20,397 nt of DNA from a virus, in the IMG/VR virus record IMGVR_UViG_3300048018_000240, positions 1-20,397 of that record, one strand, 5' to 3'. This document shows, piece by piece, positions 4,069-15,839 of this stretch. Numbering within the stretch: position 1 is the stretch's first letter; the number at the start of each line of letters is the position of its first letter. Under the pieces are notes generated by a model. It saw only the letters and a program-made list of their open reading frames with translations, did not search any database and had not been told where the DNA came from. The position numbers and the translations under genes are program-made.

Positions 4069-5910
4069 ATGGCAGTACAGGGTAAAATTTTAACTAAATT
4101 AGAACCAACCATAGAACTTGATAAGCTTAAATTTAAATCTTATAAAGAGTCTGAGGGAGATAATCCTGGAGATAACAATACATCTCAAGAATTAGGTGTT
4201 GAGTTTCCTTTAATATTTGTTAATGGTTATAGGTTTAATAAACCAGACATTAAGCATTTTGACATATCTTTAGCGGAGTTTTCTCCGACAATAAACATAA
4301 CTATAATAGATTCAGAATCCTTATTTTCAGCTGATTCATACCCAAGAGATGGTGATGTAATTAACGTAAGAATAGCTTCTAGAGCAAAAGACATATATAA
4401 GGATATTAGAATGGATTTTGATATTGTTGATGTGATATCACCTCCTAAATCTGCAGAAGCAAATAATATGGGAGGAGCTATTTATACGTTAAGTGGTAGG
4501 ATGAAAATACCAGGATTATATGCAGAACAATGTAAATCATACGGAGTAGGAACTACATTAGATCATTTAGAAAAAATAACCACTGAACTTAAATTAGGTT
4601 TAGCTTCAAATGTAGATTTAACCGACGATTCAATGAATTTAATAACGCCGTATGAGCCAATTAAAGACACTATCGAGGATTTAGTAAAACACTCTTACGT
4701 CAATGAAGATTCATTTGTGACATGTTGTGTAGATCCTTATTATTATTTTAATTTCGTAGATTTAAATTCTATATTAAATGCAGATGAAGACTTTGAAGAT
4801 GCTATTTCTTCTTTTGACGAAAATATAAATGACACATTAGGACCTGAAGCTACTAATGAAACTAATTTAATAGATAAATCCCCATTAGCAATAACATCTT
4901 TTTCAGGAGCAGCCGGCACTAATGTACATATTTCAAAATATGCAATACAAAACAATTCTGGGGAAATAGTAAAAAAGAACGGATATAAAAGAGTTCTTCA
5001 ATTTTTTGAGAATGATTCTGAGGAAACTGGATTAGTAAACTTTGATGTTGAGCCTTTATCTTCTAATAATCTTAAAGACATACATGAGCCTCTTAAAGGA
5101 CGTAGGGACGAGGAGAGATACAAACAAGAAATAAAATATAAGTATGTTGGCAGAAGACATAGTGATGCAGAAACATCGAATACACACTTAAATTACAACT
5201 TTGCAGGATTACATAATGTTCAAAATCTTCAAGAGCTTGATAAGGTTTTTTTAGAAGTTGAATTATCAACATGGAATCCTGCTATATATAGATATCAAAA
5301 ATTGCCAGTTGCAATATACTCAGAAACTCCTGATAAAACTGCGGCCGATGCTGCTTTAAAGACCAAGAAAGAAGAATTAGGATTTGAGGCTAAAGAAAAA
5401 GAGGAAATAGCCGACGGTAGTAGAAATGAAAACGATGGTGTTGGGGTAATTGATGAATTCTTAAGTGGGTTTTATATTGTTGGAGAAATAAGTTATGTAT
5501 ATACAAGGAAAACAGGCAAAACTGTACAAAAGATGAAACTTCTCAGAAGAGAATGGCCAAGTCGCATAAATAATATACCTGAAAATATTTCAGAACCTGC
5601 ACCTGAGCCAGCGCCTCAACCAGCGCCTCAACCGGCTCCTGAACCAACCCCAGAACCGGCACCAGAGCCTACACCGGAACCTACACCGGAACCTACGCCA
5701 GAGCCAACGCCACACTTATATGAAATCTTAATAACTGGTAATACGTTGCAAATAGTTGTATTTGACGCAAGTGGAGCTGAAGTATATAGAGGTGAACCTA
5801 GAATTAGTGTAAACCCAATACTAGATGAGGGTGGAGTTGTAAATGAAGCTAAAGCAGCTTTAGATCCATCGAAACAAGATCCTAACGTCCAAAACATGCG
5901 AAAAAAATAA
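4069..5910 (+). CDS. Baseplate hub protein (gp27/gpD-like) with Pro-Glu linker
   Basis: A 613-residue protein. The N-terminal 200 residues have the hub pattern: FPLIFVNGYRFNKPDIKHFD, then FSPTINITIIDSESLF and a GDVINVRI segment, followed by a helical YAEQCKSYGVGTTLDHLEKI region and a VKHSYVNEDSF segment like the second hub barrel. Residues about 460-505 (FLSGFYIVGEISYVYTRK, then KMKLLRREWP) close the core. Residues 509-548 are ten tetrapeptides of the type E/Q-P-A/T-P, a stiff linker, followed by a 65-residue C-terminal beta-rich domain unlike the core. Hub proteins form the trimeric platform between tail tube and spike; the neighbours fit (LysM wedge protein before, spike two genes later). 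The fold assignment is inference from pattern; the linker and extra domain are directly seen. Confidence 0.65.
   Translation: MAVQGKILTKLEPTIELDKLKFKSYKESEGDNPGDNNTSQELGVEFPLIFVNGYRFNKPDIKHFDISLAEFSPTINITIIDSESLFSADSYPRDGDVINVRIASRAKDIYKDIRMDFDIVDVISPPKSAEANNMGGAIYTLSGRMKIPGLYAEQCKSYGVGTTLDHLEKITTELKLGLASNVDLTDDSMNLITPYEPIKDTIEDLVKHSYVNEDSFVTCCVDPYYYFNFVDLNSILNADEDFEDAISSFDENINDTLGPEATNETNLIDKSPLAITSFSGAAGTNVHISKYAIQNNSGEIVKKNGYKRVLQFFENDSEETGLVNFDVEPLSSNNLKDIHEPLKGRRDEERYKQEIKYKYVGRRHSDAETSNTHLNYNFAGLHNVQNLQELDKVFLEVELSTWNPAIYRYQKLPVAIYSETPDKTAADAALKTKKEELGFEAKEKEEIADGSRNENDGVGVIDEFLSGFYIVGEISYVYTRKTGKTVQKMKLLRREWPSRINNIPENISEPAPEPAPQPAPQPAPEPTPEPAPEPTPEPTPEPTPEPTPHLYEILITGNTLQIVVFDASGAEVYRGEPRISVNPILDEGGVVNEAKAALDPSKQDPNVQNMRKK
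5593..5712 (+). repeat. Ten tandem 12-base units coding a Pro-Glu/Gln linker
   Basis: The stretch encodes ten consecutive tetrapeptides (EPAP, EPAP, QPAP, QPAP, EPTP, EPAP, then four EPTP) inside the hub gene. The units differ at third positions (CCT, CCA, CCG, GCA, GCG, ACA, ACC, ACG), so the peptide is kept while the DNA has drifted. Its antisense frame reads as a Gly-Ser-Val repeat, a shadow. Slippage could change the copy number between related phages. Confidence 0.9.
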
Positions 5911-5923
5911 GATAAATAGTTAT

Positions 5924-7114
5924 ATGTCAGACTTTAAGAGAATATCAGATTTTAAGAAAAGTAAGTTATCTAGATACCCGTATCAAGATCCAACATACTT
6001 GTCTTTTGTTATGCTTTTTGATTTTACAGATCAAATAAATTCACCACTATTATCTTTAAGTGCTGAAAATTATCTAGCTAAATTGGCTAATGCCGATTCA
6101 ACTGAATCTGAGTTTTATAAAGAAAGATTAGAAAATTTACAAAATTTTAAAAAGGCTTTAAAAACTATCAATAATGAAATGCCATGGTACTGGCAAAGTC
6201 TTTCTGGTTTAGAAAGAACTCAACAGTATAATCCTGAAAATGCGTATATGGGAGGAGACGATGCAAGAATTGAAATTACAACATTAGAATCTTTAAATCT
6301 ACCTGTAGCTGGATTAATGCATCTTTATAGAAAAGCTGTATTTGATGAAAGAAAATGGAGTTATATTCTTCCTAGCAATTTACGTAAATTTAGAATTTAT
6401 ATTTATGTAAGTGAAGTTAGAAAAATTAAAGATAATGCAAAGCCTAAAATCGGTGGTTTAAACAAAGATGCTCTTAGAGGGTTTCCAGATAATTTTAAAC
6501 CAACTTTAAGTATAGAAGATAAAAATAAAGAAATATCTGGAGTTTCGGGTAGACCTTATTTTATGATATCATTAAAGGATTGTGAATTTGATATAAAAGA
6601 AGGTGTTGAGATATTTACAGATTTACAAAAATCTCCAGAAGCACCTGCAACTGGTAAAATTGCATTTAATTATGAAGTGTTATACAATGTAGAATCTAGA
6701 GTTTTAAATGGTATAATAACAAGTGAATTTGGTTCTGATAATTTAGCACCATCTCCTGATGGAGAAGGAGTTTCACCAAATACTGTTGGTGATTGGTTAT
6801 TAGATAAAGCGAAAGAAAAAGGACAGGCGTTTGTCGATAGAGCAGTTGGTGATTTGAAAAACCAAGGTTTAGAAAAAATGCAAGAATTAAAAGCGGCTGC
6901 AAAGGACGCGACTATTGGTAGATTAGATAGAAGTATTAATAATATTTATAAAGAATTTATAACTGGTGTAGATAATGCAACTGGCGATATAACTAACAAT
7001 ATTAAAGAATCTATAGGCGAAAATATTCATGGATCTGCCGCAGGTGCAGATACTGTATTAGATGCTCTTACTACTGCGTCTAGAAACTCTTTAGGAAGCG
7101 TATACGATGAATAG
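5924..7114 (+). CDS. Tube- or hub-associated virion protein, 396 residues
   Basis: The first 285 residues look structural: SYPYQD-like start (LSRYPYQDPTYLSFVMLFDF), an aromatic MPWYWQSLSGLER turn, WSYILPSNLRKFRIYIYVSE strands, and a beta segment RPYFMISLKDCEFDI with KIAFNYEVLYNVESRVLNG that resembles tail-tube-fold proteins. Residues 286-396 are different: a long amphipathic, Ala/Asp/Asn-rich helical tail (LDKAKEKGQAFVDRAVGDL and onward). It lies between the hub and the spike gene and overlaps the spike gene by 8 bases (ATGAATAG). Position and fold hints suggest a second tube-cap or hub ring protein, perhaps pairing with the 590-residue protein as gp48 pairs with gp54 in T4. I am not certain of the family. 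Confidence 0.5.
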   Translation: MSDFKRISDFKKSKLSRYPYQDPTYLSFVMLFDFTDQINSPLLSLSAENYLAKLANADSTESEFYKERLENLQNFKKALKTINNEMPWYWQSLSGLERTQQYNPENAYMGGDDARIEITTLESLNLPVAGLMHLYRKAVFDERKWSYILPSNLRKFRIYIYVSEVRKIKDNAKPKIGGLNKDALRGFPDNFKPTLSIEDKNKEISGVSGRPYFMISLKDCEFDIKEGVEIFTDLQKSPEAPATGKIAFNYEVLYNVESRVLNGIITSEFGSDNLAPSPDGEGVSPNTVGDWLLDKAKEKGQAFVDRAVGDLKNQGLEKMQELKAAAKDATIGRLDRSINNIYKEFITGVDNATGDITNNIKESIGENIHGSAAGADTVLDALTTASRNSLGSVYDE

Positions 7115-7823
7115 CGAAGAACTTGAAAAAGATAATATTAGAGAAACTCACTGGTTAGGTGCAGTTGTCGATAACACAGATCCTAAAAATTTAGGTAGGT
7201 GTAGAATCAAGGTGTATGGTAAATTTGATAACTTGCCAGACGATGCTATTCCATGGGCAACTCCTATGAATAGGGATTTACCAGGTTCACATGCAACCCC
7301 TAGAGTTGGCGATATAGTTGCAGTTAGATTTGATAACGGAAACATATATCATCCAGAATATTGGTTTCACATTAATCAAAACAAAGAATTAAAAGAAGAT
7401 ATTTTAGAATCTTCATCAGCACCACAGGACGTTATCAGTTTAGTGTATGACGCTGAAAGAAACTTAAGAATATATCATTCACAAGACGACGGGTTAGTAA
7501 TCACAAGAGGAAGTGGAGCTAAAGAAAGACCACTTATTCAAATAGACGAAGATGGTATGATAAAGATTTCAACAGATGAAAAGATATTCTTAGATTCTGG
7601 AAATATATTTTTATCAAATGAAGGAGAAGCTGGGGCTGACGAAAGCGAACCAGCTGTTAGAGGAGTATCTTTAGAAACTTGGTTAAATACTTTTTTAGAT
7701 GATTATAAGGCACATACTCATCCAACTGGTGTAGGACCTTCTGGGCCTCCATTAGCGCCGACGCCTATTTTTATAAATCAAGCAAAGAACAATCATATTA
7801 ACTATCAACAAAAAAATAAATAA
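7107..7823 (+). CDS. Baseplate central spike protein (gp5/gpV/VgrG-like OB fold, no lysozyme)
   Basis: A 238-residue spike. Residues 16-100 show the gp5-type OB fold: WLGAVVDNTDPKNLGRCRIK, then DDAIPWATPMNRDLPGSHATP, RVGDIVAVRFDNGN and PEYWFH, a run well known from phage spike N-domains. Residues about 135-180 are short strand-turn repeats (IQIDEDGMIKISTDEKIFLD) typical of the triple beta-helix of the needle. The C-terminus has an HTH triad at 203-205 followed by PTGVGPSGPPLAP. In P2 gpV, apical histidines of the three chains bind iron; the HTH here could do the same, though about 33 residues follow it. The T4 gp5 lysozyme domain is absent, so local cell-wall cutting must come from another protein or is not needed. 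It overlaps the preceding gene by 8 bases. Confidence 0.8.
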   Translation: MNSEELEKDNIRETHWLGAVVDNTDPKNLGRCRIKVYGKFDNLPDDAIPWATPMNRDLPGSHATPRVGDIVAVRFDNGNIYHPEYWFHINQNKELKEDILESSSAPQDVISLVYDAERNLRIYHSQDDGLVITRGSGAKERPLIQIDEDGMIKISTDEKIFLDSGNIFLSNEGEAGADESEPAVRGVSLETWLNTFLDDYKAHTHPTGVGPSGPPLAPTPIFINQAKNNHINYQQKNK

Positions 7824-7825
7824 TT

Positions 7826-9637
7826 ATGCCTGCACAGTGGCCTAAATTTATTAAAAACGTATCTGACAAAATGTCAGGTCAAGGGTATGATTCAGTTGAA
7901 GAGTGGGCTCTATTTTTATCTAATGAATATTTTAACGCTGTTAAAACTTCACAATCTCCCTATGGACAAACACATGTATCTGGTCAAAAACCTATTTTAG
8001 ACACAGGGTTTGTAGCAGCCTTCAATAAAATATTTAACGAAGAAACTGTATCTTTTGAAGATAAATTTGAATTACCTAAATTTGCAGATTTTAACGAACC
8101 TACGGTAGTGCCTGATTATACTAATAATACAACTTGTGAAATAGAAGATTGTATTAATCAAAATAGAGATTTAGAAATAACATTTATTGATTATAGAGAA
8201 AATAGCAAACCTGAAAAAACACATACGTATGATAAATTTCAATTTTTCTCTTTGTTTGAATCTTTATGCCCTGATCCTTTTGTTGATGAAAAAGATTTTA
8301 CTGGCGGAATTAATATTGAAGAATTAATAAGTGATCAATTAGAAAAAGATCAAGAGTTAATCGATGCAGGATCTCCTGATTTATTCGCGGTTTTAACTAT
8401 ATATGGTTTTAACGAATCTGGTAAATATAAATTTTTATATTCTATAAACGAAGAAGATCAACCTATAGAACGAGCAAATGACGGCGTATTTACGACTCGT
8501 ATATCTTCTACGCCTGGAGATTATAAATATATTTTTAAAGAAGTATACGATGAAGATCTTAATTTAATTAAAGTAATTAATAAAGAAGTGACAATTACTA
8601 TTTCAGAAAAAGGAGAACCTGTTATTGTAAACACACTAGAAGACGAGTCGGACCAGCAAGATACAACTCCAAAGATATTAGATATATTAAACACGGATTC
8701 TCTAGACCTTAGTAATAAGGATGTTAAGGATTATTTATTAAACTCTTTAACTGAGCGTGTTTTATTACAAAATGACGAAACTGAAAACTTTTATAAATGG
8801 GTTAAGCGCTTTAACAGCTTCAGTGGCGTTCATTATCCAGGGTGGGTACGAACTATATTAAAAGATTTAGAAGATAAAATAAAAGATTTAGCAGATGTTG
8901 TTAAAGATAAAGTTATAGCAGAAGCTCGCGCAAATGGAGATCTAAGAGTAGCAAGCCAATTCAGCAATATAATATACAATAGGTTTGATATACAAGAAAT
9001 TATTGAAAACTCTAAAATAAATCAATACACATGGCAGGTTAGTGAGAAATTAGATATTGATTTACCTAAATGGCTTGATCCTACCGCAATCATCGCATTT
9101 ACTTATGATAAAGTATACGATATGCCTTTTGCTGGAGGACAAACCACGGTTGTTGAAGGACTAAGAAAATCAGCTAAATTAGATAAATATGATGAAGAAC
9201 AAGATAAATGGTTTGATAGAGTAACTGCTTGTGTAAGTAATAAAGATATAGATTTAGCAGAAGATCCTGCTGAAGAAGACGGATATGATGATTTAGCTAA
9301 ATCTATTATAGACTATTGGAAAAGCACAACAATTCAGCCTTTGAAAGCAAGCCCACCTGTGCCGCCATGTAATACGCCGGCACCTCTAGGAGGAAAATAT
9401 GTTCCTATTTATTATGGTAACCAAGCTGGATTAGCAAATAAATTAAGGAGAGCGTTTAACACTGGTAAAAAGTTTAAACTAAAAGGGATGCACAGACCTC
9501 CTTCAGTAGCAGTTGCAACTGCAGTCGCTGCTGCGTGTAGTATGCACTTATTAGAATTAAAATTCATATATTTAGGAGGAATTATAACACCAACTTCTCC
9601 TATACCTATGATCGGGTTTGTTCCCGTAGTGTTCTAG
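7826..9637 (+). CDS. Large virion-associated protein, 603 residues, function unknown
   Basis: The gene starts two bases after the spike gene. The N-terminus (PAQWPKFIKNVSDKM, VEEWALFLSNEYFNAV, then a Gly-rich loop) is of a type I associate with phage tail proteins encoded beside the spike. Residues about 184-262 look like an inserted Ig/PKD-like beta sandwich (LFAVLTIYGFNESGKYKFLY, TRISSTPGDYKYIFKEVYD, VTITISEKGE). The middle is helical and acidic. The last 90 residues change character: SIIDYWKSTTIQP, a Pro/Cys turn (PPVPPCNTPAPLGGKYVPIY), then an Ala-rich and hydrophobic end (VAVATAVAAACSMHL and PTSPIPMIGFVPVVF) that could insert in a membrane or pack in a trimer. No catalytic residues are evident. 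A baseplate or ejected role is inference. Confidence 0.5.
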   Translation: MPAQWPKFIKNVSDKMSGQGYDSVEEWALFLSNEYFNAVKTSQSPYGQTHVSGQKPILDTGFVAAFNKIFNEETVSFEDKFELPKFADFNEPTVVPDYTNNTTCEIEDCINQNRDLEITFIDYRENSKPEKTHTYDKFQFFSLFESLCPDPFVDEKDFTGGINIEELISDQLEKDQELIDAGSPDLFAVLTIYGFNESGKYKFLYSINEEDQPIERANDGVFTTRISSTPGDYKYIFKEVYDEDLNLIKVINKEVTITISEKGEPVIVNTLEDESDQQDTTPKILDILNTDSLDLSNKDVKDYLLNSLTERVLLQNDETENFYKWVKRFNSFSGVHYPGWVRTILKDLEDKIKDLADVVKDKVIAEARANGDLRVASQFSNIIYNRFDIQEIIENSKINQYTWQVSEKLDIDLPKWLDPTAIIAFTYDKVYDMPFAGGQTTVVEGLRKSAKLDKYDEEQDKWFDRVTACVSNKDIDLAEDPAEEDGYDDLAKSIIDYWKSTTIQPLKASPPVPPCNTPAPLGGKYVPIYYGNQAGLANKLRRAFNTGKKFKLKGMHRPPSVAVATAVAAACSMHLLELKFIYLGGIITPTSPIPMIGFVPVVF

Positions 9638-9688: not shown

Positions 9689-10957
9689 ATGTCACAAGAC
9701 GTTAAACAAAAAAGAAAAAGACTTTCAGGAACAATGCAACCAGAAGTTGCTACTGAAAAAAAAGAAGATCGCGTTTTAGCTAATGCTAACGTACCGCCAG
9801 AAGAGTTTAATTGGGCTGAGCATGAAGCTGGATGTCCATCACAAACTAGAAAGGCAAACACGAATTTAAAAAACATTCCACATGGCTGGAAAGTTTTATG
9901 TAAGGATCCTTACGCACAAGATTTCTTAAACATTTTAATGGGCCACGAGGCAGAAACACCTAATCAACAAATGAGTATTGAGGCTGGTGAGATCTACACT
10001 GGTACTATTTATAGTGTAAATACTGAATGGGTATCTGTTGATATTGGGTATAGAGAAATGGTGTACGTAAATTACTTAAAAGAAGAAGCAAGTATTAGAG
10101 AATCTTTTATCGTAGGAAATGAAGTTAAGATTCAGGTTTTACAAATGGGAGGAGCTAGAGGATTTGTTTTAGGATCTATTTCAGCCGGAGTTAAGACTGC
10201 TGTTGCTGCTGAGATAATGGAATCTATTAAAGACGGAAACACTGCATATATTGGTAAAGTAGCTAATATGATACCAGGCGGAGGTTATATTGTAAATGTG
10301 CAAGGTATAGATTGTTTTATGCCAGGTTCTTTGGCTGGAATTAATAAACTTCCAGATTTTGAATCTATAGTAGGAACTGAGATGTATGTAGTACCTGTTA
10401 GTTTTTCAGAAAAGAGAGGAACTATTGTAGTATCTCATAGAGAATATTTAAAAGCCATGATTCCTTCTAAGATTTCAGACCTTAAAGAAAATCTTACACA
10501 AGATTTATCAGGTAATGTTACAGGATCTGCGAAATATGGAGTATTTGTTGAATTTAACGAGTGTTTAACTGGTATGATTCATGTTAATGATTTAACACCT
10601 GAATTATTAAAGGCCCACAAAGCTAGAGAGATACAACCTGGTGATGCAATCAATTTCAAAATAAAAGAAATTGTAAGTGAAACTAAAATCATTCTAACTC
10701 AATTAGATGCTAAACCTGTTGTTGATTTATGGGAAGGTATTGAAGATCGAATTAAAGCGCCTACCCAAGTTATTGGTAAAGTTAAAGCTGTTAAAGATTA
10801 TGGAATCTTTGTAGACATTGAAAAAGGAGTTGCAGGTTTATTACATATTTCAGAACTTGAAGGTATTGATGTAGAAGATATCAAACCAGGTAACGATATT
10901 AATGTTAAGGTTACAAGAATAGATGCTTCGACAAGAAAAATCTTTTTAAAACTATAA
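9689..10957 (+). CDS. Ribosomal protein S1-like protein with four S1 domains
   Basis: A 422-residue protein made of a 96-residue N-terminal extension and four S1 (OB) domains at roughly 97-163, 182-253, 272-341 and 357-422. Domain 2 has the signature of the second, ribosome-docking domain of bacterial S1: GGGYIVNVQGIDCFMPGSL (PGS at 212-214) and KRGTIVVSHREYL (242-253). Domains 3 and 4 are RNA-binding type (GSAKYGVFVEF ... GMIHVNDL; AVKDYGIFVDIEKGVAGLLH ... ISEL). Bacterial S1 usually has four to six domains and binds the 30S subunit to feed mRNA into it. This copy seems to keep the docking part and two RNA-binding domains. It lies among virion genes with an A-rich leader and is closed by a strong terminator, so it is probably a late gene. 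Cellular contamination is unlikely given the contiguous phage genes. Confidence 0.9.
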   Translation: MSQDVKQKRKRLSGTMQPEVATEKKEDRVLANANVPPEEFNWAEHEAGCPSQTRKANTNLKNIPHGWKVLCKDPYAQDFLNILMGHEAETPNQQMSIEAGEIYTGTIYSVNTEWVSVDIGYREMVYVNYLKEEASIRESFIVGNEVKIQVLQMGGARGFVLGSISAGVKTAVAAEIMESIKDGNTAYIGKVANMIPGGGYIVNVQGIDCFMPGSLAGINKLPDFESIVGTEMYVVPVSFSEKRGTIVVSHREYLKAMIPSKISDLKENLTQDLSGNVTGSAKYGVFVEFNECLTGMIHVNDLTPELLKAHKAREIQPGDAINFKIKEIVSETKIILTQLDAKPVVDLWEGIEDRIKAPTQVIGKVKAVKDYGIFVDIEKGVAGLLHISELEGIDVEDIKPGNDINVKVTRIDASTRKIFLKL

Positions 10958-10982
10958 AAAATTAATATTTTTTAAAAAAAAG

Positions 10983-11013
10983 CGGCATAAAATTTTTTTA
11001 TGTCGTTTTTTTT
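10983..11013 (+). terminator. Intrinsic terminator after the S1-like gene
   Basis: CGGCATAAAA (10983-10992) pairs with TTTTATGTCG (10996-11005), a 10-base-pair stem with one G-U pair and a 3-base loop, followed by eight T (11006-11013). A run of A precedes the stem, so it could also work on the other strand, although no gene lies there. It separates the hub/S1 transcript from the genes that follow. Confidence 0.85.
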
Positions 11014-11049: not shown

Positions 11050-11421
11050 ATGCCTTACATCACAAAAGAACAAGTAAAATCAAAAAGAAAAGCACTTAAA
11101 GAAGCTCTTCCACAGTACAAATTATCTATTACAACTGAACATTATTCAGGTATTAAAGTTGCAATTATGTCAGGTCCTACTGATTTTGGAACTGAATATA
11201 CCCAGCTAAACCAATATCATGACTATCGTGCTGAAACTTGGAATAGAAATACTGAAGAGTATGAAAGTAATCCATCAATTGCAGATGTTATGGATGTTAT
11301 TATGCCAATTTTAAACGAAGGAAAGGGAGCATCAACTGAAGATGGTGATTATGGAATGATACCTGATTACTACACTTGGGTCCATATTGGTAAATGGGAT
11401 AAACCTTACGTTATTAGTTAA
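11050..11421 (+). CDS. Small LPD29-like protein
   Basis: A 123-residue protein. Its N-terminal half (KSKRKALKEALPQYKLSITT, then HYSGIKVAIMSGPTDFG) has the order seen in LPD29, a 'large polyvalent protein'-associated domain: Arg/Lys-Ala-Leu-Lys helix, a strand, Tyr-Ser-Gly turn, strand, then GPT. Such domains are found in proteins of phages and conjugative elements and are often grouped with anti-defence or DNA-modifying activities, but no reaction is established. The C-terminal part has NQYHDYRAETW and a GKWDKPY end, with many Tyr/Trp. It stands alone behind a terminator, followed by a hairpin-filled gap and the amidoligase-like gene. Family recall is from pattern only. Confidence 0.55.
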   Translation: MPYITKEQVKSKRKALKEALPQYKLSITTEHYSGIKVAIMSGPTDFGTEYTQLNQYHDYRAETWNRNTEEYESNPSIADVMDVIMPILNEGKGASTEDGDYGMIPDYYTWVHIGKWDKPYVIS

Positions 11422-11486: not shown

Positions 11487-12782
11487 ATGAAAACATTTAA
11501 TGATTCAGAAATACTGAAAAACGCCTTAGTTGGTGTAGAATTTGAATTTTATTCAAATATTTCAATAGAGGAAACTGCTAAAGAACTTGCTGGGATTTTA
11601 AATAAAAAAATCAGAGTAGAGGAACAAGCACATAGTGACTTTGTTGTAACTTCTGATGAGTTTAAAATAGAACCAGACATGAGTGGTGGCGCCAAGTTAA
11701 TGGAATTAGTAACCGGTGCAGTACCTTATTATTCTGCGAGGTTAATGATTATTAATGTGTGTTCGTGGATAGAAAAGAATGGATATACTAATGATAGATC
11801 TTCAATACATTTGAATATTTCTTTTGATAAAAATAAGATTGAAGATAAAAATAGAATATCTAAAATGAACGTTCTTAAGTTTATTTTAGATTTTAAAGAA
11901 AATCAAGTTTTTAAATTCTTTCCAGAAAGAAAAGATTCAGCATACGCAAAATCTATTAAATTTATTTTACCTAACAAAGATACTTATTTCTTTGACGGTA
12001 AAACAATTAATCAACAAAATTTTATTTACCCCGATTCTAAATACTATGGAATTAACTTTGAAAAAAGACATAGTAATTATTTAGAATTTAGATATATTGG
12101 TGGAGCCGATTGGGAAAAAAAGACATCAACTATATTACACATGTTAGATAGTTTTTTAGTTCAATTATGGAATTCAACAGAGTCTAAAAGATTTACAGAT
12201 CTAAATGCACTAGAACTTAAAAAAATATTAGCAGATAATAAGAGAATTATAGATTCTAGAAGAAATTGGAGAGAAATTGAAAAAAATTGGAAACATATTC
12301 AATTCAGTGTTGATTTAAATAAAGAAGATAAAATAGTAGATATTTACTGGGCAAATATAAAAGAACAAGTTATGCGATTATTTACGCATGGTGCGATTTC
12401 AAAAGGCCATATAAATTATGATACTGATACCGGTAGGGTTCAAGTAAAAGATGGAAAGCTATCGTATTGCGTTGAATTAGATAATTATGATTTTATAAAT
12501 TGCCATATTAGAGGAGAAGTTTCTCACTCTGATTTATTTCAATGTCAATTAGAAGGATCTGATGTTGATGAGTGTAATTTTTATGATAATTGTCAGATAA
12601 ACTCTTCCAAAGTTAAAAATTCATATATACATAAAAGCTGTCATGCAAATGATGCGTATATATATGGAACAAATGGAATATTTAAAGGAAGTATGAAAGG
12701 CGGAATATTTAGAGAAGGTAAATACGATAAAAAAACAGCTAAATTCGATAACACTGAAAAGGTGTTGTATCAAGAAGTATAA
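11487..12782 (+). CDS. Amidoligase-like protein with C-terminal pentapeptide-repeat-like region
   Basis: A 431-residue protein with two parts. Residues 14-115 follow the amidoligase (glutamine-synthetase-like COOH-NH2 ligase) order: LVGVEFEF (E18 and E20), then EPDMSGGAKLMELVTG (D64, E73), a helix, and SSIHLNISFD (H108, N110), matching 'GxExE ... D-x-S ... G-x-E-L-V ... G-x-H-x-H' with the second His replaced by Asn. Residues about 120-320 contain FDFKENQVFKF-like helices and NYLEFRYIGGADWEKK, which could complete the active site (E and R on one strand). Residues about 335-408 run in five-residue steps (SDLFQ, CQLEG, SDVDE, CNFYD, ...), like a pentapeptide-repeat beta-helix. Family members join amine and carboxyl groups using ATP, e.g. 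on peptides or proteins; the substrate here is unknown. The gene sits among virion genes behind a hairpin leader. Confidence 0.6.
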   Translation: MKTFNDSEILKNALVGVEFEFYSNISIEETAKELAGILNKKIRVEEQAHSDFVVTSDEFKIEPDMSGGAKLMELVTGAVPYYSARLMIINVCSWIEKNGYTNDRSSIHLNISFDKNKIEDKNRISKMNVLKFILDFKENQVFKFFPERKDSAYAKSIKFILPNKDTYFFDGKTINQQNFIYPDSKYYGINFEKRHSNYLEFRYIGGADWEKKTSTILHMLDSFLVQLWNSTESKRFTDLNALELKKILADNKRIIDSRRNWREIEKNWKHIQFSVDLNKEDKIVDIYWANIKEQVMRLFTHGAISKGHINYDTDTGRVQVKDGKLSYCVELDNYDFINCHIRGEVSHSDLFQCQLEGSDVDECNFYDNCQINSSKVKNSYIHKSCHANDAYIYGTNGIFKGSMKGGIFREGKYDKKTAKFDNTEKVLYQEV

Positions 12783-12800
12783 AATAAAGTACATATAAAA

Positions 12801-13631
12801 ATGAGTAATATATTTGTAGGAGACGATTCATGGTTAGCAGACCCTCAATTAGGGAGTGACTGTTTTAATGAATTTGTTAATGAACTAGCAGAAGAAGTTA
12901 CAGGGTCTTGTATGATCCCTATGAATCTTCCAAAGAAAGAAGTTCAGAACATTGTAAAAAGAGCTAAAAAATGGTTTTATAAAAATTATGAGTATTCTGT
13001 AAAAGAATCTTTTGTAGTTTTACCAGTTGCTCTTTTTGATTCAGAATATTTTAAACAAAATAGAGCTATCACACTACCTGGAATGGATGACACTAGCAAA
13101 GGAAACGAAGTTTATTCAGTTTACGGTGTATTTGAAACAGGATCAAGATCGGGAATGACAAACGATATTAATTTCACGACCGGTGATTTTGCAATGGAAA
13201 GAATGATGGCTCAAGGATTATATGGTGGAGCTGGAACTGCAGCAGCAGCTGAAAATTTGCAAGCCTATGTTATTAATGAAAGTTTTTACGACTTAGCAAG
13301 ACAAGTTTTAGAGAATCCAATTAGTTTTCAATATAACCAATTAACACATCAGTTAAAATTTATGGGAGATACTCCTAAAAAAGATGTTATATTAGAAGTA
13401 TATGAAACTATTCCAGAGTGTAATCTTTTTAGTGATGAAGCATTCTTTAGATATTGCGCAGCAAAAATAAAGGTTTCGCTAGGACAAAAGCTTTCTATAT
13501 TCGGATTTACATTACCTGGAAATATTCAAGTAAATGCTGATGTTATTCAAGGTTTAGGAGAAACTGAATTAGAAAATGTAATTGAAGAAATAAAAACAGA
13601 TGAAGGTGCTGATTGGATGATGCATTCTTAG
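12801..13631 (+). CDS. Neck protein, T4 gp13-like
   Basis: A 276-residue protein with the layout I associate with the gp13 group of neck proteins: an N-terminal helix of connector type (VQNIVKRAKKWFYKNYEYSV), a strand with VLPVALFDSEYF and a LPGMDD turn, YSVYGVFETG, a middle helical insert, then SFQYNQLTHQLKFMGDTPKK, a YETIPECNLFSDEAFFRYCA helix and AAKIKVSLGQKLSIFGFTLPG near the end, closing with a QGLGETELENVIEEI helix. gp13 seals the head portal and joins the tail in T4. The gene lies 19 bases after the amidoligase-like gene and is followed closely by gp25. The identification is by pattern; a wedge-associated protein is the alternative. Confidence 0.55.
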   Translation: MSNIFVGDDSWLADPQLGSDCFNEFVNELAEEVTGSCMIPMNLPKKEVQNIVKRAKKWFYKNYEYSVKESFVVLPVALFDSEYFKQNRAITLPGMDDTSKGNEVYSVYGVFETGSRSGMTNDINFTTGDFAMERMMAQGLYGGAGTAAAAENLQAYVINESFYDLARQVLENPISFQYNQLTHQLKFMGDTPKKDVILEVYETIPECNLFSDEAFFRYCAAKIKVSLGQKLSIFGFTLPGNIQVNADVIQGLGETELENVIEEIKTDEGADWMMHS

Positions 13632-13647
13632 TGGTATATATAGATAT

Positions 13648-14001
13648 ATGGAGTTTTACGTAAAAGAAATAGGAGAACCAAATTTTAGCCCAGATAAGCT
13701 GCAGCAAGACGCTGAGCTTTCTATGTTAATGACTCAAATAGAAACAATACTTTTCACGAGAAAAGGAGATGTTCTAGGTGATTTAGAGTTTGGTGCAAGT
13801 TTAGAAGATTACGTATATGAATTAAGATATAATGATTTCCAGCTAAAGAAAGTAATTAATGAGCAAATAGCTCAATACGCACCTTTAGCTCAAAAATATA
13901 GTGTAGATATTCAAGTTGATTACGCAAAAGAAGTAGACAGACACGCAGTGTTTTTAGATATTACTATTGATTCGCGACTTCAATTAGGAGTATACATATA
14001 A
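13648..14001 (+). CDS. Baseplate wedge protein gp25 (GPW/gp25 family)
   Basis: A 117-residue protein of the typical length for the gp25/gpW lysozyme-like wedge family. The core reads MLMTQIETILFTRKGDVLGD and LEFGASLEDYVYEL (residues about 26-58), i.e. the helix, the T-x-K-G-D/E turn and the F-G-x-x-L-x-D helix of the family, followed by VINEQIAQYAPLAQKYSVDI. gp25 joins the wedge to the first sheath ring and is one of the most conserved contractile-tail parts. It is 16 bases after the neck-like gene and 17 bases before the gp6-like gene, the usual gp25-gp6 order. Confidence 0.9.
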   Translation: MEFYVKEIGEPNFSPDKLQQDAELSMLMTQIETILFTRKGDVLGDLEFGASLEDYVYELRYNDFQLKKVINEQIAQYAPLAQKYSVDIQVDYAKEVDRHAVFLDITIDSRLQLGVYI

Positions 14002-14018
14002 AATTATAAAAAAAACAA

Positions 14019-15839
14019 ATGGCTGAATTTAAATTTTTAAATACATCTAGAATTAAAGCTAATGAAATGATCTCAGATACGAGAACATACATTGCTCGTT
14101 TATATGGAAGAACGAGTGAGTTGTTTACGACTGCGTCTCCTTTCTCTCAAATTCTTGATGTTTTATCTGAAATAACTAAACTAATTTTCTTCTATATTGA
14201 AGACTCTACGGTTGAGCAAAATATTTTAACTGCACAAAATCCAGAATCAATTTATGGATTATCAAGGCTAGCAGGTCATGACGCTTTTAGAGGTGCAAGT
14301 GCGTATGGCGAAATAAAAATAAGACTAAACACATCAGCATCTACAGATATTGCAGGTGACGCATTAAATATTTCTAAAAACTCTACAATTAAATGTTCTT
14401 CAAATGGATTAGAATACATTTTAAAGACAAACGCTGATAAATTTAGAATTGAAAAAAGTAACTCAAACTATATATACATACCAGTTATTCAAGGTAAAGT
14501 TGAAAACCAAACAGTAACAGCTACTGGAGAAAAACTTCAATCTTTTAACATTATAATAAAAGGCATAACAGATCATCACTCAGTTAGAGTAAGCGTTAAT
14601 AGTGAATTATGGACTAAATATGATTCTTTATATGACATGAAGGTTGGTACTAAAGGGTATTTAGTTAAAACTGGAATCAACGGAGGGTTAGATGTTTATT
14701 TTGGTAATGGTTCTTTTGGTTCAATTCCGCAAGAAGGAGCAAGTATTGATATAGAATACATTGTAACAGATGGTTCTGGAGGAAATCTCACAGGTTCTAA
14801 AGATTTAACTTTTAAATTTGTAACTGAAGGATTTGATTCTTTAGGAGAAGAACATGATTTAAACCAATTATTAGAATCTTCATTTACAGTAACTCCTAAA
14901 ATGGGAGCAGACCCTGAGGATATCGCATTAACAAAGTTAATTGCACCTCTACAGTCTCATTCATTTATTTTAGCTACTCCAAATTCTTATGAGCATTTTC
15001 TTTCAAGATACGGAATGTTCTCTTATTTAGATGCATATAACACAACTGAAGACGGATATTTAGATGACGACAATGTGATTTATTTATTTATGTTACCAGA
15101 TACAAAGAAAAAACTAACAAAGAATAAAGATTATTTTAATCTAGGGTTAGATGAGTTCTTTTTCTCAAGTGATGAAAAGAATGGAATATTAAATCTATTA
15201 GAAAAAAGCGGACAACAGATGGTTACTACTGAAGTTAAAATAGTAGAACCTAAAGTACAAAAATTTAGAATGGATGTTAAAGTAAGATATTTTGAAGGTT
15301 ATAACAAAAAAACGTTATACTCTGAAATAAGATCTAAAATTAGCGAATATTTAATTAGCATAACAAGAAGAGACCGTTTACCTAAATCAGATATCATTGC
15401 AATTTTAGAATCAATTGAAGGTATTGATTCAGTTAACGTTAAATTTACTTCTCAAGTTGAAGAAGACGCAAGAAGAAATGGATTCTATACTTTAGAAAAA
15501 GTAACAGTAACTCCATCAACGCCGGTATTAGAAGATATTGGAAATGGTAAATCTAAATACGTTTTCTTTAAAAGAACTGTAACAACTCAGAGAGTTGATT
15601 TTGAACCTAATGCTGCATTACCAGAAGAAGTTATTAACTTAGATTCATTTGGTGATATTATTTTAGAATCTCAAGAAGTTGCATTGTTTAGAGGAGGTTG
15701 GCAAGATAGAGACGGTGTTGAAGTATTAGATGACGCTAAGCTTGGCGAAATGGCAGCACTATCTATTTACTTTGATGAACCTGCTGTAAAGAATACAATA
15801 TTCGCACAGATACAGGCTAAAAATAGAAAAGCACTATAA
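14019..15839 (+). CDS. Baseplate wedge protein gp6 (baseplate J-like)
   Basis: A 606-residue protein, close to T4 gp6 (about 660). The baseplate J signature lies at residues 225-257: DVYFGNGSFGSIPQEGASID followed by IEYIVTDGSGGNL. The N-terminus has a long helix pair (SPFSQILDVLSEITKLIFFY, and EQNILTAQNPESIYGLSRLA) and the C-terminal half has the J-domain repeat (FRMDVKVRYFEGYNKKTLYS, with ISEYLISITRRDRLPKSDII). gp6 dimers form the iris ring that opens on contraction. It follows gp25 directly, and its stop codon overlaps the start of the next gene by one base (TAATG), showing coupled translation. Confidence 0.9.
   Translation: MAEFKFLNTSRIKANEMISDTRTYIARLYGRTSELFTTASPFSQILDVLSEITKLIFFYIEDSTVEQNILTAQNPESIYGLSRLAGHDAFRGASAYGEIKIRLNTSASTDIAGDALNISKNSTIKCSSNGLEYILKTNADKFRIEKSNSNYIYIPVIQGKVENQTVTATGEKLQSFNIIIKGITDHHSVRVSVNSELWTKYDSLYDMKVGTKGYLVKTGINGGLDVYFGNGSFGSIPQEGASIDIEYIVTDGSGGNLTGSKDLTFKFVTEGFDSLGEEHDLNQLLESSFTVTPKMGADPEDIALTKLIAPLQSHSFILATPNSYEHFLSRYGMFSYLDAYNTTEDGYLDDDNVIYLFMLPDTKKKLTKNKDYFNLGLDEFFFSSDEKNGILNLLEKSGQQMVTTEVKIVEPKVQKFRMDVKVRYFEGYNKKTLYSEIRSKISEYLISITRRDRLPKSDIIAILESIEGIDSVNVKFTSQVEEDARRNGFYTLEKVTVTPSTPVLEDIGNGKSKYVFFKRTVTTQRVDFEPNAALPEEVINLDSFGDIILESQEVALFRGGWQDRDGVEVLDDAKLGEMAALSIYFDEPAVKNTIFAQIQAKNRKAL

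Follow-up and report, generated by a model that had tools for sequence, protein, structure and literature searches.

A shortened, virus-specific S1 protein encoded in a phage baseplate gene block and its putative docking on the host 30S subunit

The S1 gene and its surroundings

The window, i.e. the whole stretch of 20,397 nucleotides analysed here (IMG/VR virus record IMGVR_UViG_3300048018_000240, positions 1 to 20,397), carries an S1 gene whose ORF begins with ATG and has its bounds exactly at 9689-10957 (+), which confirms the observation of the first-pass annotation. That annotation had also placed the gene inside a virion gene block and had taken it as phage property. The gp5-, neck-, gp25- and gp6-like genes identified around S1 (Table 1) bear out the former statement and the synteny conserved in 28 cluster loci the latter. 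For the gene directly upstream of S1 no match was found in annotated phages. The profile match of the Amidoligase_2-like gene is limited to its N-terminal part, and this gene is a constant neighbour of S1 (28/28 cluster loci). An ORF with an LPD29 domain (11050-11421) lies between S1 and the amidoligase-like gene and is matched in one of the 28 loci, that of the window's own cluster. A proline-glutamate repeat (PEPTPEPAPE, 5575-5712) is present near the C-terminus of a tail-like protein (ORF 4069-5910).

Table 1. Features at and around the S1 gene (positions are those of the window)
Feature	Position	Strand	Remarks
Baseplate hub gp5 / Phage_base_V-like gene	7107..7823	+	
Gene of no assigned family	7826..9637	+	directly upstream of S1; in 22/28 cluster loci
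Phage S1 protein, 422 aa, four OB (S1) domains	9689..10957	+	
Anchor motif FNWAEH	9806..9823	+	residues 40-45; matches Bacteroidota S1 N-terminal segment
Virus-specific conserved element, CPS..RK.N..K....V.S.EPYAQ	9833..9928	+	residues 49-80, between anchor and OB1
OB1, putative docking domain	9977..10186	+	residues 97-166; R122 at E. coli Lys43 place
OB2, putative docking domain	10232..10453	+	residues 182-255; Y200, F210, PGS 212-214, VVSHR 247-251
OB3, RNA-binding-type OB	10490..10714	+	residues 268-342; Y283, F286, H298; Pfam S1
OB4, RNA-binding-type OB	10757..10951	+	residues 357-421; Y371, F374, H386, R416; Pfam S1 5.4e-14
Intrinsic-terminator-like hairpin	10975..11013	+	directly 3' of S1
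Amidoligase_2-like gene	11487..12782	+	downstream of S1; conserved neighbour
Neck / head-tail adaptor-like (Ad2/neck-like) gene	12801..13631	+	
gp25-like gene	13648-14001		
Baseplate wedge gp6-like gene	14019..15839	+	host clue

A first scan of IMG/VR yielded 19 S1 loci, and a broad scan at least 499 confirmed relatives among at least 598 stretches. The best 80 of these at least 499 loci (at least 49% identity) comprise 51 distinct proteins, which form 28 clusters at 90%; since only these 80 loci were used, all tallies out of 28 concern the close part of the family. For residues, domains and conservation the 28 rows are the 27 cluster representatives longer than 300 aa and the window itself, so that the window's own cluster is counted twice. 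The fragment L066 stands outside these rows and is included in the motif, synteny and terminator tallies. The dN/dS values of S1 range from 0.08 to 0.13 in 7 of 15 ortholog pairs, those more than 85% identical, and the gene is under purifying selection.

Among the 28 cluster representatives the amidoligase-like gene accompanies S1 in all 28, the gp5-like gene in 27, the neck-, gp25- and gp6-like genes in 27 each and the gene at 7826 in 22. The misses of the gp5-, neck-, gp25- and gp6-like genes are confined to two contigs which end there. S1 is located between the gp5-like and neck-like genes in 26/28 loci, the other two contigs ending on one side. Part of this gene order is present in LR756500 (462 kb); around the S1 genes of four other huge phages and two Lak phages no virion gene of the window was found within 6-8 kb.

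Three terminator-like sites are present in the stretch against 1.0 expected. The hairpin behind S1 has a counterpart in at least 19 of the 28 cluster representatives as compared to 0 of 560 shuffles, in which only the base content was kept; 19 is a lower bound, several of the nine loci scored as having none containing hairpins that fail the T-run rule. The position of the hairpin points to S1 as the last gene of a transcription unit that enters from the virion/tail genes. Promoter-like sites around S1 are at chance level (10 against 9.8). The word TATATTA, considered as a late promoter behind S1, was rejected because it is present there in only 3/28 loci; in a 175-kb relative 11 of its 133 occurrences are located immediately before ORF starts, as compared to 3.7 expected.

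Domains, N-terminal anchor and descent

The Pfam S1 model (PF00575) matches the ORF at 7.2e-26 through three stretches only, namely OB4, OB3 and a borderline OB1, which reaches 21.9 bits against a cut-off of 22 and passes only with its neighbouring stretches. OB2 is missed by Pfam; an S1-specific domain-2 model assigns it 39.6 bits, as compared to at most 4.2 bits for models of other cellular S1 domains. An AlphaFold2 model (9-sequence alignment; mean pLDDT 74.3, pTM 0.47) contains four five-stranded barrels, in agreement with the four S1 domains claimed from the sequence at first pass. Helices are modelled with modest confidence at residues 42-48, over the anchor, and 76-89, and residues 1-30 are without confident modelling.

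The NCBIfam ribosomal S1 models match the phage protein at 1e-48 and 9e-43. Among the 25 of 29 families listed, the best non-S1 family is CvfD (3e-20), and PNPase gives 3e-15; families with generic S1 domains (PNPase, RNase R, GSP13/CvfD) reach 72.5 bits at best, with CvfD, against 166 bits for S1. As judged from these profiles, the resemblance to ribosomal S1 is far beyond chance, and the earlier view that the protein belongs with cellular S1 rather than with generic S1-domain binders stands among the families listed. The curated NCBI cut-offs for S1 are not reached, NF004952 (580 positions) giving 166 of 524 bits and TIGR00717 (516 positions) 146.5 of 577 bits for a phage protein of 422 aa and four OBs. 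The closest sequence match in the PDB is E. coli bS1, across D1-D4. The top Foldseek matches of the model are bS1 in 30S/70S complexes (9gut, 8.8e-26), with low TM-scores (0.35) because the domains are flexibly linked. Structural matches among viral models include an S1-motif protein of 'Virus NIOZ-UU157' and two proteins named '30S ribosomal protein S1'.

Domain-by-domain models were built from seven cellular S1 rows. OB1 matches D1 best and OB2 matches D2 best, each in 28/28 close-family rows, so that domains 1-2 do group with bacterial S1 domains 1-2, one of the two points on which the first-pass reading was to stand or fall. At the OB1 and OB2 places of the huge-phage and Lak rows (n=7), five match D1 and five match D2. 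By this profile comparison OB1-OB2 corresponds to the docking half of S1. For OB3 the best match is cellular D5 in 28/28 close-family rows, and OB4 matches D5 in 23, D3 in 3 and D4 in 2; the second half need not be D3-D4, because OB3 matches D5 best. The PGS and VVSHR hallmarks described at first pass are both present in OB2. The histidine at position 250 (the 'SH' form) is found in 28/28 close-family rows and in 4/4 Bacteroidota S1, while 3/3 Proteobacteria have R; among distant viral S1 it is present in 1/5 huge phages and 0/2 Lak phages. Of the four OBs of the family, OB1 shows the lowest conservation (mean 0.59, the others 0.72-0.81).

The aromatic and histidine residues for RNA binding are kept in the later OBs of phage S1. 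F286 of OB3 is present in 28/28 rows and H298 in 27/28, and Y371, F374, H386 and R416 of OB4 are invariant in 28/28 rows. This residue set of OB3-OB4 is the one described in the S1-domain literature. Four OBs are compatible with function, since E. coli S1 lacking domains 5 and 6 supports initiation and viable, slower growth, and its RNA binding is reported to be only slightly affected (PMC3858243).

An N-terminal segment of the form F-x-W-x-x-[YFH] is present in 28/28 clusters, 4/4 Bacteroidota S1 and 2/2 Lak S1, and is absent from 5/5 other huge-phage S1 and 3/3 Proteobacterial S1. The chance of the motif in a shuffled N-terminus is about 0.003 per protein. The first-pass annotation had overlooked this segment. 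The S1 of PDB entry 9zcd opens alike (NFNWHNF). The main anchor of E. coli S1 is a short N-terminal segment in which Phe5 and Phe9 stack on Phe32 of uS2, aided by Lys43, which enters the uS2 zinc pocket (PMC4288201, PMC10123108). This segment is described as the primary anchor; it competes with S1 for the 30S subunit and inhibits ompA translation (PMC4288201). The motif of the phage protein appears to correspond to the N-terminal uS2 anchor segment of Bacteroidota type, and from its position and aromatic character the Bacteroidota segment may act like the E. coli Phe pair. The S1 proteins of two phages of 635-642 kb (L051, L052) start with FDLLFEDD and LAYLFDEY, which by eye are nearer to the E. 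coli anchor than to F-x-W.

The Lys43 place is occupied by R in 23/28 and by K in 5/28 close-family rows; in distant viral S1 it is K in 5/5 huge phages and S in 2/2 Lak phages. Y200 and F210 of OB2, at the places of E. coli Phe120 and Phe130, are invariant in 28/28 rows, the Bacteroidota rows having M and F. The roles of the Lys43-type residue and of the OB2 aromatic residues in docking are taken from the E. coli work (PMC10123108). E. coli Lys117 of OB2 is not kept in phage S1 (G197), while Bacteroidota rows have K, and R or K takes the Phe79 place in 27/28 rows. On alignment, the majority of the docking residues are retained. The conserved element at residues 49-80 partly recurs in Lak S1 and has no counterpart in the aligned cellular rows.

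In a tree of OB1-OB3, 13 viral and 7 cellular S1 rows are split with support of 100/100 (unrooted; two cellular phyla only). In sequence terms, phage S1 appears to be a divergent, virus-only lineage. When 84,980 cellular genomes were scanned with the phage alignment and two specific patterns, one weak Gammaproteobacterial match was obtained among 33 stretches; close cellular or prophage copies were thus not evident within the reach of this non-exhaustive scan. The S1 of an Acinetobacter 'phage' was discarded as mislabelled host DNA. By best-stretch scores, obtained with small models (three sequences each), the OB domains score higher with the Proteobacterial than with the Bacteroidota S1 model in 28/28 rows; of the four rows listed singly, that of LR756501 shows the opposite, the Bacteroidota model scoring higher. 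A simple origin from a present-day Bacteroidota host is unsupported, since the OB domains fit Proteobacterial S1 better. With an OB body nearer to Proteobacterial S1, the host-type anchor could be convergent or could have been recruited apart. The description of the protein as 'host-like' in the first-pass annotation thus holds for the anchor and the SH motif and fails for the lineage, which is virus-only, and for the OB domains.

Host, Shine-Dalgarno use and the linked bS21

The gp6-like protein matches 145 phage records. Among the 30 best matches 6 are uncultured and 24 have a named host, which is Prevotella (Lak), Tenacibaculum, Flavobacterium or Chryseobacterium in 22 and Sphingomonas (phage PAU) in two. 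The 145 records include 101 Klebsiella phages, which are more distant. The neck-like gene matches eight records (four uncultured, two PAU and two Chryseobacterium). These matches suggest that the phage, with its T4-like baseplate genes, probably infects Bacteroidota. The baseplate-related phages of Tenacibaculum, Flavobacterium and Chryseobacterium are not among the 34 records matching phage S1, so such phages can do without S1. Chryseobacterium phage MA9V-1 was considered as a cultured S1 carrier and dropped; it is not among the S1 matches and the word 'ribosomal' is absent from the main text of its paper.

The genes of the family are without Shine-Dalgarno (SD) sequences. In the 28 family loci SD sequences precede 14 of 409 genes against 10.4 expected, while the T4 control gives 17 of 27 against 2.3; in the 175-kb relative the count is 5 of 149 against 3.7. 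SD words of five bases exceed expectation in the 175-kb relative (3/149 against 0.6), LR756501 (2/20 against 0.2) and Lak (2/22 against 0.2); these counts, small as they are, speak against a lack of SD sequences there. All these counts refer to mechanically called ORFs of at least 100 aa, taken from the first ATG. In Flavobacterium johnsoniae, bS1 is reported to double the initiation yield (reaction amplitude) on one SD-less mRNA and to have little effect on rpsU mRNA (PMC9976891).

A second ribosomal protein gene, that of bS21, is encoded in 19 of 27 longer IMG/VR relatives (7/7 and 12/20 contigs), several of which are near-copies, so that these are not 27 independent cases. It lies 14,953-22,636 bp upstream of S1 on the same strand in 19/19. 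The sample consisted of contigs of 7 of the 19 first-scan loci and 20 of the 80 broad-scan loci as well as seven named records, longer ones being favoured. As the window starts 9.7 kb upstream of S1, a bS21 gene at this distance would lie beyond the reach of the 20-kb fragment and of the first-pass annotation. A 91-kb contig (that of L008), whose S1 is the same as the window S1 in 421 of 422 residues, does encode bS21. Among the named huge phages with S1, bS21 is present in 4/7. It was not detected in 8 of the 20 contigs (L103, L105, L107, L108, L110, L114, L118 and L128; up to 236 kb); the pairing of S1 with bS21 is thus not obligatory and S1 is the more constant partner. A tblastn search with bS21 over 50,697 phage records (E at most 0.01) returned six records, five of them S1 carriers, more distant bS21 being missed because of the short query. 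In a plasmid collection the four best bS21 matches are the rpsU genes of Bacteroides, Phocaeicola and Parabacteroides (39-43%) and the fifth is from Rhizobium.

A DnaJ-like gene adjoins the phage bS21 in 19/19 IMG/VR bS21 loci (L023-L029, L139-L150; L034 9683-10471), and in the 175-kb relative a PhoH-like gene is present on the other side. In the 735-kb phage LR756501 (L136), which belongs to a phage group that hardly uses SD sequences, the bS21 gene has a strong AGGAGG just before its start, recalling the extended SD of Flavobacteriales rpsU. In the 175-kb relative an ATP-grasp gene between S1 and bS21 (L034 2784-3812) carries the PHROGs label 'S6 glutaminyl transferase'; it was rejected as a bS6 modifier, RimK scoring 0.001 and D-Ala ligase 1.6e-7 in NCBIfam, and libraries other than PHROGs describe it only as a generic ligase. 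The 175-kb relative also has two tRNA genes, Arg(tct) and Glu(ttc), found by piecewise ARAGORN runs (L038 10502-10766).

Proposed role and comparison with known systems

Taken together, phage S1 appears to be a virus-specific, shortened bS1, whose gene is constantly present in the baseplate block of the close family. We consider it fairly probable that it docks on the host 30S subunit via uS2 and, often together with phage bS21, favours phage mRNA. The anchor would hook onto uS2 of the host 30S subunit, replacing or competing with host S1, and the basic residue R122 would sit where Lys43 of E. coli enters the zinc pocket. OB1-OB2 would lie at the mRNA exit beside bS21, by analogy with their known contacts in E. 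coli (PMC10123108), while OB3 and OB4 would catch the SD-less phage mRNA and the neighbouring phage bS21 would complete a phage-tuned mRNA platform. Its place in the virion block suggests that phage S1 is probably made late. The interpretation offered at first pass, that a host-like S1 could replace or compete with host S1 on 30S subunits and shift translation toward phage mRNA late in infection, is partly supported.

A protein with OB3 and OB4 of the typical RNA-binding kind could instead work off the ribosome, either chaperoning mRNA or pairing with a phage protein of RNA processing or transcription. Host S1 itself is described off the ribosome in Qbeta replicase and with T4 RegB and lambda beta (PMC13157829), Al-Shayeb et al. 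did not decide between action 'on or off the ribosome' for their phage proteins (PMC7162821), and of the four OBs it is the main docking one, OB1, that is conserved least. However, it is not evident why such a binder should keep the anchor, the Lys43 equivalent and the D1/D2 domains, all of which are retained, or be linked with bS21, and we regard this explanation as unlikely. The retained anchor would also suit a decoy which fills the S1 site and shuts off host translation, the RNA-binding half being secondary; on its own, the N-terminal segment of E. coli S1 competes with S1 and inhibits translation of ompA, and bulk translation is inhibited when the N-terminal part is produced in vivo (PMC4288201). 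For a decoy OB3-OB4 would be superfluous, yet their RNA-binding residues are invariant or nearly so, and the place in the virion block suggests production when the phage itself needs translation, which makes a decoy quite improbable.

The position of S1 between the gp5-like and neck-like genes in 26/28 loci could further be taken to mean that the protein is packaged in the particle (baseplate/neck) and perhaps injected. Against this, those phages of Tenacibaculum, Flavobacterium and Chryseobacterium whose baseplate proteins are related are missing from the S1 matches, the S1 genes of the four huge and two Lak phages have none of the window's virion genes within 6-8 kb, and the fold is without structural features. 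A virion role therefore seems very improbable to us. Returning to docking on the 30S subunit, we tentatively propose, as a rather doubtful extension, that Bacteroidota phages of a large lineage exchange, as a unit, the platform at which mRNA enters the 30S subunit, with an old virus-only S1 whose anchor tracks host uS2 while its OB body evolves separately. If such a unit swap of bS1 and bS21 is true, host ribosomes would become phage-specialised for SD-less mRNA.

In Bacteroidota, start-site choice without SD pairing is believed to centre on host S1 and bS21. A phage S1 with an anchor, often with bS21 in relatives, would be a natural probe of this process, and the four-domain S1 could be added to F. 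johnsoniae ribosomes in vitro. The combination of anchor and D1/D2 may also serve as a sequence test by which a 'true' phage S1 can be told from proteins with generic S1 domains. In Mizuno et al. (2019) the S1 domain was left out of account because of its ambiguous function (PMC6375957), and confirming a 'true' rpS1 proved difficult in Al-Shayeb et al. (2020; PMC7162821). As compared to the prediction of phage S1 in huge phages in 2020, the anchor, the linkage with bS21 and the extent of the family are new; the listed open-access titles and starts of abstracts contained no mention of a phage S1 anchor or of an S1-bS21 linkage.

The bS1 (rpsA) of Bacteroidota shares with phage S1 the D1/D2 docking domains, the initial F-x-W segment, the VVSH motif and OBs of the RNA-binding type. 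In contrast, phage S1 is shorter by two OBs (four against six; Parabacteroides S1 gives six Pfam stretches), contains the virus-specific element before OB1 and is only 25-27% identical to three Bacteroidota S1 over about 91% of the query. Closer are the possible rpS1 proteins predicted by Al-Shayeb et al. (2020) in huge phages with few SD sequences, among which Lak and five genomes larger than 634 kb are predicted to replicate in Bacteroidetes (PMC7162821); we took the huge-phage records compared here to be those genomes. These proteins, including those of Lak, belong to the same virus-only clade and likewise have several S1 domains and few SD sequences. The window S1 is unlike them in its place in a baseplate block, and its F-x-W anchor is shared with Lak and not with the other five huge-phage S1 compared. 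IF3 is encoded in LR756500 and LR756501 and L12, above cut-off, in LR756501, whereas neither was found in 13/13 IMG/VR contigs.

A phage-encoded bS1 was also reported in 2026 for the cyanophage PhiMa05, likened here by its description and not by sequence; it is accompanied there by five further ribosomal proteins, perhaps from a Vampirovibrio-like host (PMC13157829). The bS21 of Bacteroidetes phages is likewise a protein of the 30S platform, encoded in a phage structural region and with a proposed late role (PMC9723584). According to the account given there, those phages carry bS21 without other ribosomal proteins, whereas in the relatives of the window bS21 occurs together with S1.
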